A stretch of 64,000 bases of DNA. Source: Caldimonas brevitalea (GTDB lineage Bacteria; Pseudomonadota; Gammaproteobacteria; Burkholderiales; Burkholderiaceae_C). The notes beneath the pieces were generated by a model. That model was not told where the DNA came from, ran no database searches, and worked only from the letters and a program-made list of their open reading frames with translations. Positions 3,650 through 10,348 of this stretch are shown here, one piece after another (position 1 is the first letter of the stretch; each line of letters begins with the position of its first letter). The stretch is from assembly GCF_001017435.1 (NCBI RefSeq), contig NZ_CP011371.1:5704001-5768000 (forward strand), in the 5' to 3' direction. A program made the position numbers and the translations under genes.

Positions 3650-4042
3650 ATGCAAGGACTGCACCTCACTGCCGACCTGCAGGGCTGTCCCGCAGGCCTT
3701 GCGCCGATGACCGACCGCCTCGCGCTGCGGGCCTTGTGCGTCGAACTGGTGGTGCAAGCCGGGCTGCAGCCGGTCGGCGAGCTGTTCCATCGCTTCACGC
3801 CCGCGCATCCCGACGAGGCGGCCGGCGTGACCGGCGTGGTGCTGCTGGCCGAATCGCACCTGGCCATCCACACCTGGCCCGAGCTGGGCGGCGTCACGCT
3901 CGACGTCTACGTTTGCAACTTCAGCGACGACAACCGCGGCCGTGCCCAGGCGCTGATGGACAGCCTGGTGCGCGCCTTCAAGCCGCAGCGGGTGCAGCGC
4001 CAGCAGCTGGAGCGGGGTGGCCTGGCGGCGCTGCTACGTTAG
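3650..4042 (+). CDS. speD: S-adenosylmethionine decarboxylase proenzyme, class 1b type
   Basis: Encodes a 130-residue single-domain AdoMet decarboxylase of the short bacterial SpeD/SpeH type. The self-cleavage motif ESHLAIHTWPE is present; Ser69 would become the pyruvoyl cofactor, and Cys89 in YVCNF matches the catalytic acid position. The product, decarboxylated AdoMet, is the aminopropyl donor for spermidine synthase, and a SpeE homolog lies 1.6 kb away. The gene is convergent with the FAD-protein gene, the two stop codons overlapping by four bases (4039-4042). It belongs to the polyamine/membrane cluster running to 10348. Confidence 0.95.
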   Translation: MQGLHLTADLQGCPAGLAPMTDRLALRALCVELVVQAGLQPVGELFHRFTPAHPDEAAGVTGVVLLAESHLAIHTWPELGGVTLDVYVCNFSDDNRGRAQALMDSLVRAFKPQRVQRQQLERGGLAALLR

Positions 4043-5679
4043 CGTCGCAGCTCGTCGGCCAGCCGGCCCCCGACCTGTACCCCCCAGGTGTAGGCCTCTT
4101 CGAATACCGAGTACGCGGACAGGTCGGCATGTGCATATCGGACCCGCCCGCTGGCCTCCCCCAAGGCCGCCAGCGCCGGGCTGCCGCGCAGCCCGGGCAC
4201 CGGGATGCTCATCGCATGTCCATACCGCATCAGGTCGATGCGCCCCAGCTTGCTTCGCAGATCGGGATGCAGCGGCGCCAGGTCGGCCAGCATCGATTCG
4301 GCCCAGGCGGACCAGGGCCGCTCGAGCAGTTCGCGGCGCTGCGCCGCGGGCAAAGTCCAATAGACCGTCAGCACCGTCGGGCCGGGATGGGGCCGGGTGC
4401 TCTGGTGCATCGCATCGACATAGCCGAGCGCCCGCGGATCGCCGCCAAGGCGCACGTTGTCCCATGACGCCGGCGCGCCGTGCGGCCGCTCCACCAGCGC
4501 CTCGTCGAGCTGCAGATTGCCCACCAGCCAGGGCGCGCGGCGCTGCAGGTCGAGCGCGGCGGCCAACGCGTCGGGCGGCCGGGGGCCGAGCAGCCGGGCG
4601 GCGACGAACAACGGTGTCGCGAGCACCACGTGGCCGGCCTGCCAGGCTTCCAGCTGTTGCCGCGTCTCGTCCCAGGCCAGCACGCTCACGTCGTGACGGC
4701 CGGCCTCGACGTGCAACACCGTGCGCCCGGGGTGCAGCCGCGATGCCAAGGGCGCGGCAAGCCGCTCGACGATCCAGGCGTTGCCCTCGGGCCAGGTGAA
4801 GACCGGCTCGCGCTCGGATGCTTCGTCGCCCGGGGCGTGGAAACCATGGCGGCTCGCGAAGTAATGCAAGCCCGCCCAGGCCGACACGACGTCTGCGCCG
4901 GCGCCGTAGTCGTCTCGGCAGCAGTAATCGAGGTACCAGCGCAGCCGCACATCGTCGAGGCCGTGGGGGCGCAACCACTGGTCGAAGGTCAGCGCGTCGA
5001 GGCGGGCATGCGCAGGGGTCCATCCCGCGCGGGAGGTCGGCATCGCAAATCCGGCCTCGCGGCTCGTTTGCGCCACCAGCCGCGAGAAGCTGCGGTACTG
5101 CGCCAGCGTCGTCGACCCCGGTGCCGCGGGCGGCAGCAGGCCGTCGACCCACCCGCCCTCGAAGAACAGCCGCTCCTGCGGGCTGTGGCACAGGTGGCGC
5201 TCGTCGTATTGGGTGCGGCCGTGCACCTGCCGCGACAGCCCCAGCGCTTCGAGCAACTCGGCCACCTCGTGGGCCTGCGCCCCCGGCACCGGCAGGTAAT
5301 GGGCGCCGAGCGGGCAGCGCATGCCGGCGAGGGTGTGCCCGCGGCTGTTGCCGCCGGGCGTGTCCTCCAGCTCCAGCAGCTGCACGTCGTCCACGCCGCG
5401 CGCGCTCAAGGCGCGTGCCACCGCGAGCCCGGCAACACCGGCACCGACGACAACCACCGCGGCACGCCGGCGAACTGCCGGGGCCGGCAATCCGCCCGAC
5501 TTGTTGGCTTCGCGCAAGCGGTGGCCGCGTTGCCAGGCGCTGCCCACCCAACCGCCCTGCAGGGTGGCCGGTGGCGTGGTGGGGCGACAAGCCGGCAGGC
5601 CGGCGCCGAGCGCCGCGGCCGCCCCGGCCACCAGGCAGGCGCGGCGCGACAGCCCCCGCCCGGAAGCCGGCCCGCTCAC
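4039..5679 (-). CDS. FAD-dependent oxidoreductase with Tat/lipobox leader
   Basis: Encodes 546 residues if started at GTG 5679, which overlaps the SpeE stop codon as GTGA; no ATG is available near the N-terminus. The leader has a twin-Arg pair (SRRACL, R12-R13), a hydrophobic core and a lipobox-like GLPAC (Cys31), predicting a Tat-exported lipoprotein or periplasmic enzyme. An FAD-binding Rossmann motif VVVVGAGVAGLAVARAL follows at residues 75-91, then a PGGNSRG segment typical of amine-oxidase/phytoene-desaturase-like flavoproteins. Translational coupling to speE suggests a polyamine- or membrane-related substrate, but the substrate is unknown. Family is fairly sure, role is not. Confidence 0.8.
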   Translation of the reverse strand: MSGPASGRGLSRRACLVAGAAAALGAGLPACRPTTPPATLQGGWVGSAWQRGHRLREANKSGGLPAPAVRRRAAVVVVGAGVAGLAVARALSARGVDDVQLLELEDTPGGNSRGHTLAGMRCPLGAHYLPVPGAQAHEVAELLEALGLSRQVHGRTQYDERHLCHSPQERLFFEGGWVDGLLPPAAPGSTTLAQYRSFSRLVAQTSREAGFAMPTSRAGWTPAHARLDALTFDQWLRPHGLDDVRLRWYLDYCCRDDYGAGADVVSAWAGLHYFASRHGFHAPGDEASEREPVFTWPEGNAWIVERLAAPLASRLHPGRTVLHVEAGRHDVSVLAWDETRQQLEAWQAGHVVLATPLFVAARLLGPRPPDALAAALDLQRRAPWLVGNLQLDEALVERPHGAPASWDNVRLGGDPRALGYVDAMHQSTRPHPGPTVLTVYWTLPAAQRRELLERPWSAWAESMLADLAPLHPDLRSKLGRIDLMRYGHAMSIPVPGLRGSPALAALGEASGRVRYAHADLSAYSVFEEAYTWGVQVGGRLADELRR

Positions 5680-7241
5680 TGCACTTGCCCCCACTCGCGT
5701 TCGAAGGTGTGCACCAGCACCTGGTTGGAGAGCCGGTTCACCTCGGTCGGCACCCGTGCCATGTCGGGCGGGAAGTGCAGCAGCGCGGGCAGCCCATCCA
5801 GGGTCAGGAAGCGCAATCCCGGCGGCAAGGCCGTCGGCAAACGCCAGGGCCGGCGCCCCGCCAGCGTGAAGCCCCATTCGCCGAAGCTGGGCACATGGGC
5901 GTGGTACGCGGTGACGTTGAAGCCGACCGCCTCCAACGTCGTGGTCACGGTCCAGAAGCTGTGCCGCGCGATCAGCGGCGAGGTGGTCTGCACCACCAGG
6001 TAGCCCGCGGCCGCGAGGCGCTGGTCGACGCGCTCGTAGAAACTCGTCGTGTAGAGCTTGCCCAGCGAAAAATTGCTGGGGTCGGGGAAGTCGACCACGA
6101 TCACGTCGAACGGCTCGCCCGGCTGTTCCAGCCACTGGAAGGCGTCGGCATTGACCACCTGCACCTTGGGCGAGCGCAGCGCCTCGCCATTGAGGCGGCG
6201 CAACAGCGGCTGTTCGGTGAACAAGCGCGTGACGTGGGCATCGAGGTCGACCAGCACCACCTGCTCGACGCTCGGGTACTTGAGGATCTCGCGCACTGCC
6301 AGCCCGTCGCCGCCGCCCAGCACCAGCACCCGCCGGGGGGCGCCATGCGCGGCCATGGCCGGGTGCACCAGGGCTTCGTGATAGCGGTACTCGTCGCGCG
6401 AGTGGAACTGCAGGTTGCCGTTGAGGAACAGCCGCACGCCGGCGGGCCCCGACGTCAGCACCACCCGCTGGTAGGCGCTGCTCTCGCGCAGGATGACACG
6501 CTCGCCATAGAAGTGGTCCTCGGCCCAGCTGGTGAAGCGGTCGGCGCCGAGCATCGCGACGCACAAGACCGCGACCACCGCCGCACACGAGAGTGCATAA
6601 CCGCCGGGTCGGCGCAGCTCACCGCGGAACAGCCACAGGGCCCACACCGCCACGGCAGCATTGAGCAGCCCGAAAAACACGCCGGTGCGCACCAGGCCCA
6701 GGTGCGGCACCAGCAGCAACGGAAACGCCAGCGCGACCACCAGGGCGCCCAGGTAGTCGAAGGTCAGCACCTGCGAGACCAGCTCTTTCAGGGCATACCG
6801 TTCGCTGAAGTGCCGCTTGAGGATGCGCATCACCAGCGGGATCTCGAGCCCCACCAGGGCGCCGACCAGCAGCACCAGGGCATACAGGAGCACGCGGAAG
6901 GCGCCGGCCGCGCCTGGCGGCAGCATGCTGTGGGCCGCGAACAAGGCGGCCGGCATCAGCCCGCCGACCAGGCCCACCAGCAGCTCGATGCGCAGGAATT
7001 GCGCGACCAGCTGGCGTTCGACAAACCGCGACAGCCACGAGCCCAGCCCCATCGCGAACAGATAGGTGCCGATGATGGTGGAGAACTGCAACACCGAGTC
7101 GCCCAGCAAATAGCTGGCGAGTGCGCCGGCGGCGAGTTCGTAGACCAGCCCGCAGGCCGCGATCACGAACACCGAGGCCAGCAGGGCCAGCTCGCCCGGG
7201 GCGATACGGCGGGCGGGGCGCGTGTCGGGGGTGGCCGTCAC
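5676..7241 (-). CDS. speE: Membrane-embedded spermidine synthase family protein
   Basis: Encodes 521 residues. Residues 18-235 hold about seven membrane segments. Residues 240-510 form a spermidine/spermine synthase domain with the AdoMet-type loop GGGDG (309-313), VDLD (331-334) and the catalytic-aspartate motif VVDFPDP (D384). The domain would transfer an aminopropyl group from decarboxylated AdoMet, supplied by SpeD, to an amine acceptor, at the membrane. The substrate could differ from putrescine because the membrane fusion form is distinct from soluble SpeE. It lies 32 bases after the DUF350 gene and overlaps the FAD-protein start, so the three are probably one mRNA. Confidence 0.92.
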   Translation of the reverse strand: MTATPDTRPARRIAPGELALLASVFVIAACGLVYELAAGALASYLLGDSVLQFSTIIGTYLFAMGLGSWLSRFVERQLVAQFLRIELLVGLVGGLMPAALFAAHSMLPPGAAGAFRVLLYALVLLVGALVGLEIPLVMRILKRHFSERYALKELVSQVLTFDYLGALVVALAFPLLLVPHLGLVRTGVFFGLLNAAVAVWALWLFRGELRRPGGYALSCAAVVAVLCVAMLGADRFTSWAEDHFYGERVILRESSAYQRVVLTSGPAGVRLFLNGNLQFHSRDEYRYHEALVHPAMAAHGAPRRVLVLGGGDGLAVREILKYPSVEQVVLVDLDAHVTRLFTEQPLLRRLNGEALRSPKVQVVNADAFQWLEQPGEPFDVIVVDFPDPSNFSLGKLYTTSFYERVDQRLAAAGYLVVQTTSPLIARHSFWTVTTTLEAVGFNVTAYHAHVPSFGEWGFTLAGRRPWRLPTALPPGLRFLTLDGLPALLHFPPDMARVPTEVNRLSNQVLVHTFEREWGQVQ

Positions 7242-7273
7242 ATCAGGCCTCGGGGAAGGTCAGCGCGGCGCGC

Positions 7274-7495
7274 TCAATGAATGGCCGCAGCGACGATGAT
7301 CGCGATGCCCAGACACATCGCCCCCACCACGATGGCCAGCGCGTTGTTGCGCTTCTCGACGATTTCGGCCCACAGGTCATAGGGCGTGAGCTTGTCGATC
7401 ACGACGAAGCTGATCCAGAACACCAGCACGCCGATCAGCGCGTAGAGCATGGAGCCGAAGAAAACGGACGGCTTGAGCCATTCGATGCCCATCAT
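7274..7495 (-). CDS. DUF350 small membrane protein
   Basis: Encodes 73 residues with two hydrophobic helices (about residues 10-33 and 50-72) separated by a polar DKLTPYDLWAEIVEKRNNALA stretch, the signature of DUF350 proteins. GGAG is 9 bases before the ATG. DUF350 function is not established, but the family recurs beside SpeD/SpeE and DUF4178 genes, as here. It sits between the DUF4178 gene (49 bases upstream) and speE (32 bases downstream). A partner or channel role in the membrane is inference. Confidence 0.85.
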   Translation of the reverse strand: MMGIEWLKPSVFFGSMLYALIGVLVFWISFVVIDKLTPYDLWAEIVEKRNNALAIVVGAMCLGIAIIVAAAIH

Positions 7496-7544
7496 GTTGA
7501 GTGTCTCCGAGTAGATGAGTGGTCAAAGATCAACAGGTGTTGCG

Positions 7545-9215
7545 TCACTTGTGGCCGCCGCCGCTCGACCAGCCGCCGAAGGAGCCGCCGCTGTAGCCGC
7601 CGCCGCTTCTCGCCGACGCCTGGCATTGGCGGTATTCGTTGCTCGCCTCGCCGAAGGTCTGGCGCACGCTGTCGCAGTTGCTGCGGTCACCGCAGCGCGA
7701 CAGCATGATCACGATGAACACGACCAGCACCAGCAGCAGCAACATCATCACCGCACTGCCCAGGCAACCGCGGCCGCCTCCGGTGGGTTGCACATCGCGT
7801 TCCAGGCTGGCCGCTGCACTGTCGGGCAGTCCGAAGGCCTTGTGGATGACGTTGGACGCGACGGTTTCGCCCCCTGACCAGACCACCTCCTGGCCGGTGC
7901 GCTCGCAGTTCAGACGCTTGCGCGCGTGGGCCGTGCCGACACCTTCGTAGTCGGTGTTGACGCTACGCTGGTCACGCTCCACACGCCAGTAGAACTCGCC
8001 GAGCACATAGGTGGTCGTGGCGGTGTAGGTGTAGCGCTTGCGGTAGGTGGCACCCTGGTAGCTGGCCCGCTGGCCCTCGATGCGCGGTGCACCCGTCAAG
8101 GGCGCGACCCAGCTCCAGCCGTCTTCGGCGTCGACCAGGAACACGAAACCTTCGCGGCGGTGGTAGAGCAGGTATTCACGCCAGAAGGTCTGTTCGTCCT
8201 CGGCGTCCTCGGGCACCTCGCAGCGCTCCAGGTAGCCCACCACCTGCCACGGCAAGGCGCCGGCCTTGCCGAGCGCGAGGGTGCCGACGCTGCCCAGCGG
8301 CAGCAGCGGTTCGAGTCCGCTCTCGCCGCCGTTCTGCTGCCGATAGTGGTCGAGCGCGCTGCCGACCGTGGGGTCGACCTGCACCACGGCGGCACACATC
8401 CCACAGGCGACCGAGCGTGTGGTGGCCAGTGTGATCTGCAGCGACGCGCCGCAGTTCGGGCATTCGATGCTCTTGGCCGCCAGCGACTTGTCGGCGGCGT
8501 CGGCCAGGCCGCTCATCTTCAGCTCGGACAGCGCCACCGAGCGGCCCACGGACCATTGCGGTGCGGCGGGCTCGGCATAGTCGAGCGTGCCGACCTCGCC
8601 CTGCTCGTTGCGCAGGTCGGCCACCCAGTATTCGCTTTGCACGACGGGCGGCTTGGGCAGTTCGCCCTCGGCGGCCAGCAAGCGCGCTTGCACCACCGAG
8701 GCGACGTCCCAGCGGCGCCCGGCCACCAGTTGCGGGCGCCCGGCGCTCAACACCTCGGCCGGCGGCGCCGGGCCGTCCAGCGGCGCGTCGACCGCCAGCA
8801 CATAGCGGCCGTTGTCTTCGCTCAGCCAGGCCGAACGGCCGTTGTCGAACAGCGCATGCCATTCGTTCCAGCTGCCGCCCTCGTAGGCGTACTGCAACCG
8901 GCCCACCAGCGTGAAGCCGGCCCCCTGGTAGCTGCCACCGGCGCCGAGCCGCAGCGGGCTGTGGTCGTCGAACAGGTCGCCGCTGACACCGATGCGGCGC
9001 AGCGCATCACCTTCGCGCAGCAGCGTGCTGCGGCAGAAGCTGCACACCGCGCTGGCGGACGCGGGCGAGCGGAACTCGACCGGTGCGCCGCAGTTCGGGC
9101 ACATCGCGCGGTAGACGCGTTGCGGAGTCGGGGTGGTGGCCAAGGCGGACGGGCTTCGGGTGGGAGGCGACCCGCCGCCGCGCCGCCGGCCTTTCGGGGC
9201 AGCGGCTTCAGCCAC
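7545..9215 (-). CDS. Zinc-ribbon / DUF4178 membrane protein
   Basis: Encodes 556 residues from GTG 9215; the start is uncertain because no ribosome site is visible and MCPNCGAP (Met at about 9104) could be near the true N-terminus. Two CxxC...CxxC zinc ribbons lie at C39/C42/C58/C61 and C252/C255/C271/C274. Each is followed by a DUF4178-like beta-rich domain (about 70-200 and 305-440) with the typical Y/F-x-G-x-x-Y and WxEW patterns. One membrane helix (485-506) follows and then a Gly/Ser-rich tail with three Cys. Apparently a tail-anchored protein with a cytoplasmic or periplasmic sensor-like body. It is in the polyamine cluster, downstream of the SPFH gene. Confidence 0.85.
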   Translation of the reverse strand: MAEAAAPKGRRRGGGSPPTRSPSALATTPTPQRVYRAMCPNCGAPVEFRSPASASAVCSFCRSTLLREGDALRRIGVSGDLFDDHSPLRLGAGGSYQGAGFTLVGRLQYAYEGGSWNEWHALFDNGRSAWLSEDNGRYVLAVDAPLDGPAPPAEVLSAGRPQLVAGRRWDVASVVQARLLAAEGELPKPPVVQSEYWVADLRNEQGEVGTLDYAEPAAPQWSVGRSVALSELKMSGLADAADKSLAAKSIECPNCGASLQITLATTRSVACGMCAAVVQVDPTVGSALDHYRQQNGGESGLEPLLPLGSVGTLALGKAGALPWQVVGYLERCEVPEDAEDEQTFWREYLLYHRREGFVFLVDAEDGWSWVAPLTGAPRIEGQRASYQGATYRKRYTYTATTTYVLGEFYWRVERDQRSVNTDYEGVGTAHARKRLNCERTGQEVVWSGGETVASNVIHKAFGLPDSAAASLERDVQPTGGGRGCLGSAVMMLLLLVLVVFIVIMLSRCGDRSNCDSVRQTFGEASNEYRQCQASARSGGGYSGGSFGGWSSGGGHK

Positions 9216-9298
9216 AGGCGCAGCACGCTGGCTACGCCTGGGTCACGGCAGCATGGGGTCGCTTGGAAAAACCTGGGAAAGCGTGATGTCGGCCGCCG

Positions 9299-10348
9299 TC
9301 AGACGAGCTTCTTCAGCAGTTCGGCCTTCTTGGCCGCGAACTCGTCGTCGGTCAGGATGCCCTTGGCCTTGAGCTCGCCAAGCTTTTCGAGCGTGGCCAT
9401 CACCTCTTCCGGCCGTACACCGGCGGGAGCGGCCGCGGGCGTGGCGGCGGGTGCAGCGACGGGCGGCTGCGCTTGCAGGCCCTGCCCGAGTTGTTGCGCC
9501 ATCACCTGGCCCAGCGCGACGCCGGCCCCCAGGCCCATCGCGTCGCCGGCGATACCGCCACCGGCCCCGCCGCTGCTCGCCAGGGTCGGAATGGCCTGCG
9601 CCGTCTGGTACTGCATGAACTTGCCCATGTCGCCGCCGACCATGCCCATGCCGATCTTCTGGTCGAGGATCTTCTGCAGTTCGTCGGGCAGCGAGACGTT
9701 TTGCACCGTCACACCTTCGAGCTTCAGGCCCAGCGCCTCGAAGGCGGGGGCGGTCGCGTCGCGCAGGCGTCCGGCGAACATCACCTGGTTGGCCGCCAGG
9801 TCGAGGAAGGGCACGCCGCTGCCGGCCACCGCGTCGGAGATGTGCTGCAGCATCAGGCCGCGCAACTGGCCGTCGAGATCTTCGACGGTGTAGACGTCAC
9901 GCGTGCCGGAGATCTCGGTGTGGAAGCGCTTCGGGTCGGCGATGCGGAAGGCGTAGTTGCCGAAGGCGCGCAGCCGCACGGCGCCGAAGTCGCTGTCGCG
10001 GATGGTGACGGGCTGCGTGGTGCCCCAGCGGCGGTCGACCTGCTGGCGCGTGCTGAAGAAATAGACGTCGCTCTTGAACGGCGACTGGAACAGCTTGTCC
10101 CAGTTGCGCAAATAAGTGAGCACCGGCAGCGTCTGGGTGGTCAGCTTGTGCATGCCGGGGCCGAACACGTCGGCCACCTGGCCTTCGTTGACGAACACCG
10201 CCACTTGCGACTCGCGCACCGTCAGCGATGCGCCGTACTGGATTTCACGGTCGGCGATCGGGAACCGCCAGGCGAGCACGCCGTCGCCCTGCTCGGTCCA
10301 TTCGATGATGTCGATGAACTGCTTGCGGATGAAATCCATCAAGGCCAT
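9299..10348 (-). CDS. SPFH-domain protein with C-terminal SHOCT motif (YdjI-like)
   Basis: Encodes 349 residues. Residues 30-245 form an SPFH/virion-core-like domain (band-7 superfamily) without an N-terminal membrane helix, as in B. subtilis YdjI. A Gly/Ala/Gln/Pro-rich linker (about 250-312) leads to a SHOCT motif at the end (LEKLGELKAKGILTDDEF). SPFH proteins assemble on membranes as scaffolds; SHOCT is a short oligomerisation or membrane-association motif. GAGGGG precedes the ATG. It is the first gene of the minus-strand polyamine/membrane cluster. In Bacillus a PspA homolog, a zinc-ribbon protein and a YdjI protein are linked; no PspA gene is seen here. Confidence 0.9.
   Translation of the reverse strand: MALMDFIRKQFIDIIEWTEQGDGVLAWRFPIADREIQYGASLTVRESQVAVFVNEGQVADVFGPGMHKLTTQTLPVLTYLRNWDKLFQSPFKSDVYFFSTRQQVDRRWGTTQPVTIRDSDFGAVRLRAFGNYAFRIADPKRFHTEISGTRDVYTVEDLDGQLRGLMLQHISDAVAGSGVPFLDLAANQVMFAGRLRDATAPAFEALGLKLEGVTVQNVSLPDELQKILDQKIGMGMVGGDMGKFMQYQTAQAIPTLASSGGAGGGIAGDAMGLGAGVALGQVMAQQLGQGLQAQPPVAAPAATPAAAPAGVRPEEVMATLEKLGELKAKGILTDDEFAAKKAELLKKLV

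Follow-up and report, generated by a model that had tools for sequence, protein, structure and literature searches.

What does a bacterium do with the enzymes of decarboxylated S-adenosylmethionine (AdoMet) chemistry when one of them is fused to a membrane domain and stands in a run of membrane proteins? The question is raised by six genes, encoding an AdoMet decarboxylase (SpeD), a membrane-fused spermidine-synthase-like protein (fused SpeE), a flavin adenine dinucleotide (FAD) protein, and DUF350, DUF4178 and SPFH-SHOCT proteins, at positions 3650-10348 of a 64,000-nt stretch of Caldimonas brevitalea DNA (NZ_CP011371.1, positions 5,704,001-5,768,000; assembly GCF_001017435.1), the whole of which we call the window. 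We consider it fairly probable that the cluster aminopropylates, at the membrane, an acceptor other than putrescine and carries out a flavo-haem oxidation on the periplasmic side, on an SPFH scaffold.

The genes hang together across genomes. We searched an order sample of 120 Burkholderiales genomes (79 genera) for DUF4178 (PF13785), fused SpeE (NF002956 above its cut-off) and the FAD protein (E 1e-20). Each was found in 18 genomes, and these were the same 18, from 13 of the 79 genera, once three weak FAD matches had been dropped (Fisher p for the three-way co-occurrence 9e-22, kinship not corrected). The association is far beyond chance, and the rare co-occurrence that would have spoken against a conserved membrane-centred set, as proposed from the sequence only, is contradicted. 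The FAD gene adjoins speE in 15 of the 18 genomes; it lies about 18 kb off in G111 and on another contig in G032 and G077. Within the locus, SPFH is present in 14 of the 18 genomes and SpeD in 11. When 80 loci of the FAD family were compared, 54 had all five families of the window's minus strand together on one strand and in unchanged order, some with intervening genes; many of the other 26 were truncated by the end of a contig or of the fetched piece. SpeD turned up in 30 of the 80, invariably on the other strand from the FAD gene and sometimes several kb away. In a phylum sample of 349 genomes, DUF4178 occurred in 23 (one below cut-off). All of these were among the 39 with fused SpeE, and the FAD profile at E 1e-30 matched 10 genomes, all of them with both DUF4178 and fused SpeE. 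The phylum searches for fused SpeE and the FAD protein scored at most four candidates per genome, and the order search for the FAD protein at most 11, so that absences are not strict.

In the window all six open reading frames (ORFs) were found where they had been noted, and profile searches agreed with the family named for each. The features, with aminopropyltransferase abbreviated to APT, transmembrane to TM and twin-arginine to Tat, are:

3650-4042, plus strand: speD, AdoMet decarboxylase of the TIGR03330 type (PF02675, 93 bits; TIGR03330, 82.9 against a cut-off of 75.65)
4039-5679, minus strand: gene of the FAD protein, SpdH-like with a predicted Tat signal, GTG start (PF01593, 62 bits)
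4216-4218, minus strand: codon of H488 (GHAM motif) of the FAD protein, aligned with haem b ligand His562 of PaSpdH
5521-5523, minus strand: codon of H53 (GHxLR motif) of the FAD protein, aligned with haem b ligand His54 of PaSpdH
5587-5679, minus strand: predicted Tat signal and lipobox-like cysteine of the FAD protein (R12, R13, C31)
5676-7241, minus strand: membrane-fused speE, APT domain with seven N-terminal hydrophobic segments (NF002956/PRK03612, 685 bits against a cut-off of 472)
7274-7495, minus strand: DUF350 membrane protein, short two-helix form (PF03994, 54.8 bits)
7545-9215, minus strand: double zinc ribbon/double DUF4178 protein with a C-terminal TM helix and tail (PF13785)
7548-7757, minus strand: the C-terminus of that protein, a TM helix and Ser/Gly-rich tail ending GGGHK-COOH
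9299-10348, minus strand: SPFH (Band_7_1)-SHOCT protein, first gene of the minus-strand run (PF13421, 257.8 bits; SHOCT, 36.7 bits)

The minus-strand order is thus SPFH-SHOCT, DUF4178, DUF350, fused SpeE and FAD protein, and the GTGA overlap described between speE and the FAD gene is indeed present at 5676-5679. These five share one strand; speD lies on the plus strand, tail to tail with the FAD gene, and is therefore outside the operon here. The DUF4178 protein contains two DUF4178 matches, and eight cysteines are invariant in 51 aligned sequences; its model (predicted local distance difference test score, pLDDT, 79.9) has two beta-rich regions (window 7860-8252 and 8535-8948), neither with a clear match among solved structures.

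Could the cluster simply be the strain's standard spermidine route? The cluster's speD is the only PF02675 AdoMet decarboxylase of the genome, and PF01564 has two matches, fused SpeE and one of 31 bits in a 253-aa ORF; this is not the gene content of that route. SpeD is present in 42 of the 120 order genomes, 18 with the cluster and 24 without. Canonical SpeE, defined by the NF002956 matches of 139-175 bits in the 24 non-cluster genomes (below cut-off, APT domain only), accompanies SpeD in all 24 of these versus 2 of the 18 cluster genomes (G093, 162 bits; G105, 178 bits), and so gene content speaks against ordinary spermidine synthesis. In G093, G015, G020, G050 and other order genomes the SpeD and canonical SpeE matches lie in frames of equal length (about 410-450 aa), which suggests fused SpeD-SpeE proteins there. 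Across the phylum sample PF02675 was found in 29 of the 39 genomes with fused SpeE and the class-2 AdoMet decarboxylase PF01536 in 7 of the other 10; neither was found in G283 (71% complete), G155 and G175. The fused APT is therefore nearly always accompanied by a source of decarboxylated AdoMet. Its decarboxylated-AdoMet and catalytic motifs (GGGDG, DxPDP, Q418) and its acceptor-site motifs are invariant in 21 aligned members.

The FAD protein had been read as an exported flavoprotein with a Tat signal and a lipobox. The match to PF01593, of the amine-oxidase superfamily, and the near-invariant arginines bear out a flavoprotein with a Tat signal; what that reading missed is a pair of SpdH-type haem histidines. 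In a family alignment of 222 rows (redundancy not removed, conservation counted over aligned non-gap residues) R12 is kept in 208/208, R13 in 207/208 and the lipobox-position C31 in 207/213, H53 in 216/216 and H488 in 222/222. The AlphaFold2 model (pLDDT 90.5) was nearest to putrescine oxidases and monoamine oxidases by Foldseek and VIA, with SpdH (7d9j) at Foldseek rank 45 (E 1.6e-20), and a profile of the C-terminal part of the family gave SpdH as best PDB match (E 0.14, weak), with H488 on SpdH residue 562, a number counted by hand. Alignment with five SpdH homologues, taken from plasmids, gave an hhalign probability of 99.2% (E 1.1e-19, 471 columns, 18% identity), and in three MAFFT modes H53 and H488 aligned with the residues corresponding to His54 and His562 of PaSpdH. 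According to the accessible part of PMC12564564, the haem b of PaSpdH is held by these two histidines and receives electrons from FAD. With SpdH (PDB 7d9f-7d9j) the FAD protein thus shares the FAD amine-oxidase fold, an RR pair near the N-terminus and both haem b histidines; it differs in standing in an operon of its own, in the lipobox-like cysteine of most members and in lacking Tyr443, a residue that the title of 7d9j (Y443A) would place in the SpdH active site and opposite which V386 stands in the hhalign output as read by eye. Since Tyr443 is not kept, the substrate probably differs, and we call the protein SpdH-like rather than SpdH. It probably binds haem b and has SpdH's electron-transfer layout, and its signal predicts export to the periplasmic side.

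H517 (His in 221 of the 222 family rows) was rejected as a second haem ligand, being Asn in the five SpdH homologues and in Gemmatirosa, as was assignment to carotenoid desaturase/HpnE, for which NCBIfam matches span little beyond the FAD-binding start and fall far below cut-off. In Duffyella gerundensis (L155, 938-4040) a c-type cytochrome gene directly follows the SpdH homologue, in keeping with haem-mediated electron output.

The family of the DUF4178 membrane protein had also been named correctly, and its tail overlooked. The window protein ends in a C-terminal TM helix and a Ser/Gly-rich tail whose last residues are GGGHK; H555 and K556 are invariant in the 51 aligned sequences, and HK is the C-terminus of 60/60 DUF4178 ORFs of FAD-family loci. 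Tail-less DUF4178 proteins are accompanied by a small ORF of their own locus, 45-83 aa long and often adjoining or overlapping speD, which encodes a hydrophobic segment, a Ser/Gly-rich stretch and a terminal HK. None of the 18 cluster genomes of the order sample lacks the -HK tail: the window and L042 have it fused to DUF4178, L034-L041, L043-L047, L049 and L050 encode it as a separate ORF, and in G077 it is a separate ORF beside the remote SpeD (L182). Within this order the tail is a fixed component of the system. The stop of the small ORF overlaps a possible SpeD start (ATGA) in five loci (L041, L045, L046, L049, L050), and the SpeD ORF starts within about 20 bases of it in L043, L056 and L182. 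A rule devised after the loci had been seen (TM segment, Ser/Gly stretch, final HK) picked 16 ORFs in 17 loci (340 kb), all within clusters and at most one per locus, and 0-2 per set (mean 0.4) after triplet shuffling. A terminal lysine is rare in the other cluster proteins (SPFH 0/21, SpeE 1/35, FAD 1/20, SpeD 0/21, DUF350 0/37). Among the 23 phylum-sample genomes with DUF4178, 21 have a lysine-ended tail, 7 fused, 4 as a separate HK ORF, 5 ending IK or VK and 5 ending GGK, two of the last (L062, L179) found only with a filter for terminal lysine.

On which side of the membrane do these parts lie? By family hydropathy, the N-terminal part of fused SpeE has seven hydrophobic segments, with a mean K+R over 78 members of 0.03, 2.82, 0.01, 4.69, 0.97 and 3.04 in loops 1-6. 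Applied to these charges, the positive-inside rule would put the catalytic domain, which follows segment 7, on the periplasmic side. This is also the predicted side of the Tat-signal FAD protein and of the tail of the separately encoded micro-proteins, in which one basic residue lies within the first 8 residues in 15/15 N-termini. A periplasmic APT would need decarboxylated AdoMet outside.

Architectures of this kind are largely in print, so that the cluster itself is not new. In line with the related mixtures that had been mentioned from genomic surveys, Ravi et al. 2024 (PMC11237479, section 19) list a PspA operon that also holds DUF350, DUF4178 and a 7TM-spermidine synthase fusion. They describe, too, a variant with AdoMet decarboxylase and polyamine oxidase, where a band-7/SHOCT protein takes over from the CesT/Tir-PspA dyad. 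The window shares with that variant the Band-7-SHOCT protein in place of the dyad, DUF350, the AdoMet decarboxylase and a polyamine-oxidase-type flavoprotein; however, the paper assigns the variant to the ATP-grasp group and gives its band-7 protein two C-terminal TMs, whereas the window has the 7TM-spermidine synthase fusion and DUF4178 as partner. No ATP-grasp ligase was found among the six cluster genes. The locus is an SPFH/FAD variant of this widespread membrane operon family.

PspA was rightly said to be absent, as PF04012 has no match in the whole genome. The FAD-bearing form without PspA is, however, not peculiar to this locus, since all 18 order genomes have the FAD protein and none has PspA adjoining; it is the usual form in this order. 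A search for PspA that covered 45 genomes placed it elsewhere in three of the 18 (G032, G077, G112). Nine genomes (G125, G129, G133, G140, G126, G328, G424, G448, G175) had it no more than about 10 kb from fused SpeE or DUF4178, and in G170, G276 and G278 it lay on other contigs, which may reflect assembly breaks. The PspA-adjacent loci L059-L062 share with the window fused SpeE, DUF4178, DUF350, AdoMet decarboxylase and a Gly-rich, lysine-ended small membrane protein; they differ in having PspA instead of SPFH and a longer DUF350 protein (about 280-310 aa), with no SPFH or FAD match within the fetched loci. In L061 a CesT/Tir protein (Pfam, this locus only) and a one-domain DUF4178 protein flank PspA. 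SPFH and PspA were never found together beside fused SpeE among the genomes searched for both, and SPFH thus fills the position held by PspA in the sister variant.

In the scheme that we favour, SpeD would make decarboxylated AdoMet, from which the membrane-fused APT would transfer the aminopropyl group to an acceptor other than putrescine, probably one bound to the membrane. The SpdH-type flavoprotein, with FAD and probably a bis-histidine haem b, would oxidise an amine of the product or acceptor on the periplasmic side and hand electrons onward via the haem, and the SPFH-SHOCT protein, taking PspA's place, would join DUF350 and the zinc-ribbon/DUF4178 protein in organising the complex at the inner membrane. 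By analogy with the relatives that carry PspA, the system probably serves envelope maintenance or stress.

Several results weigh against this scheme or parts of it. The co-occurrence counts run over related genomes and are non-independent. The FAD profile at E 1e-30 had no match in 29 of the 39 phylum genomes with fused SpeE (at most four candidates scored per genome), hence oxidation is not essential across the whole family, and Tyr443 of SpdH is not kept. Corynebacterium glutamicum, taken as a control, has matches for DUF4178 and NF002956 and none for either AdoMet decarboxylase family, so a donor other than decarboxylated AdoMet may serve the fused protein in some lineages. PADLOC model mads_2 matches the SpeE domain (E 7e-18), which we take as a shared methyltransferase-type fold. 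It is the loop charges that place the APT domain in the periplasm, and the second hydrophobic segment is weak. As to the tail, the HK rule postdates a look at the loci. When ORFs were picked blind to their C-terminal residue, 20 of the 22 picks ended in K, 15 of them in HK; the remaining two picks (L044, L045) were wrong, the HK-ended ORFs there being other ORFs. A lysine-ended tail was not found in G126 and G155, and in loci with fused SpeE and no DUF4178 it was found in 2 of 17 (L164, L168), with a filter that requires the lysine.

What, then, is the acceptor? A phospholipid head group or small amine is a real possibility, though not one we would back; the -HK tail would then be purely structural, serving assembly or localisation. 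Such an acceptor would suit the membrane fusion of the APT, the SPFH and DUF350 partners and the near-absence of lysine-ended tails from loci without DUF4178, but leaves unexplained the HK ending in all 18 order genomes and the overlap of the small ORF's stop with a possible speD start in five loci. The terminal lysine itself may be the acceptor, which we think rather unlikely: the fused protein would carry decarboxylated-AdoMet chemistry to the periplasmic side, where the loop charges put its catalytic domain, and aminopropylate the lysine vectorially, and flavo-haem oxidation of the aminopropyl-lysine would leave the envelope with a group that is reactive or serves in signalling. If true, this would give bacteria an equivalent of hypusine, silaffin and lysyl-oxidase chemistry. 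The accessible part of PMC3820600 describes diatom silaffins as carrying propylamine units on peptidyl lysine and names AdoMet decarboxylase and an aminopropyltransferase as likely enzymes; that modification differs in being eukaryotic and in serving extracellular silica, and we claim no homology to the window proteins.

The tail could instead be an anchor, its lysine attached to an envelope polymer, peptidoglycan or another, in the way that the terminal lysine attaches Braun lipoprotein to peptidoglycan, with the SpeD/SpeE chemistry separate. A terminal lysine on a flexible Ser/Gly-rich tail, the basic residue near all 15 micro-protein N-termini and the lipobox-like LSSC in those of L041 and L043 fit this, but with the tail genetically coupled to speD and DUF4178 and no transpeptidase among the six genes we regard it as unlikely. 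Quite unlikely, in our view, is the ordinary route, in which SpeD and fused SpeE would make spermidine from putrescine, the FAD protein would degrade the surplus and the others would be mere neighbours. The NCBIfam equivalog for the fused protein is named polyamine aminopropyltransferase, its acceptor-site residues are largely kept and its 25 PDB matches are polyamine synthases; yet it is fused to a membrane domain and co-occurs perfectly, in the order sample, with DUF4178 and the Tat-signal flavoprotein, and its bacterial homologues are described, in the accessible part of a 2025 paper (PMC12803844, citing Li et al. 2019), as experimentally uninvolved in spermidine and spermine biosynthesis.

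The lysine-ended tail, beside or overlapping speD in several genomes, provides a concrete candidate target of the membrane-fused spermidine-synthase-like proteins, and the SpdH-type histidines turn an annotation of 'FAD-dependent oxidoreductase' into a candidate periplasmic flavo-haem enzyme. Were the tail the acceptor, this would be a new kind of envelope-tied post-translational modification in bacteria. Li et al. reportedly proposed in 2019 a polyamine-independent role for AdoMet decarboxylase and are said to have grouped it with a membrane-fused spermidine-synthase-like protein and DUF350, independently of spermidine; that work is not known to include a FAD/haem enzyme or a lysine tail. The words 'heme', 'twin-arginine' and 'Gly' do not occur in the main text of PMC11237479, full-text literature searches gave no paper with DUF4178 beyond that one and three in which DUF350 and spermidine both occur, and searches that reached few subscription papers and no supplements gave no description of the -HK tail. 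Within the reach of these searches, three things are new: the strict co-occurrence of the three families, the presence of SpdH-type haem histidines in a partner with a Tat signal, and a tail ending in lysine that is coupled to speD or fused to DUF4178.

Copies of the cluster are also found on large plasmids of Alphaproteobacteria and Gemmatimonadota, and the set may therefore move as a unit. Plasmid p1 of Novosphingobium sp. ES2-1 (L153, 2875-9724) bears a colinear run annotated as SPFH, DUF4178, DUF4178, hypothetical protein (the small ORF), DUF350, polyamine aminopropyltransferase, FAD-dependent oxidoreductase and speD; plasmid 1 of Gemmatirosa kalamazoonensis (L152, 2167-9287; Gemmatimonadota) has SPFH, two DUF4178 ORFs, DUF350, SpeE, the FAD protein and a SpeD match. 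Some loci carry insertions. In two Pelomonas genomes (L075, 5135-6496; L085, 5359-6693) DUF350 and speE are separated by a gene for an M48-type membrane peptidase with a CAAX protease N-terminal domain, and in Acidovorax soli (L131, 2000-8244) three long ORFs at the same place resemble, on sequence impression, a type III restriction-modification set. In two other Acidovorax loci (L119, 5196-9964; L125, 5004-9901) the space between speE and the FAD gene holds a long ORF that resembles a membrane signalling protein (1259 and 1301 aa) and another that resembles a response regulator, which may regulate the system.

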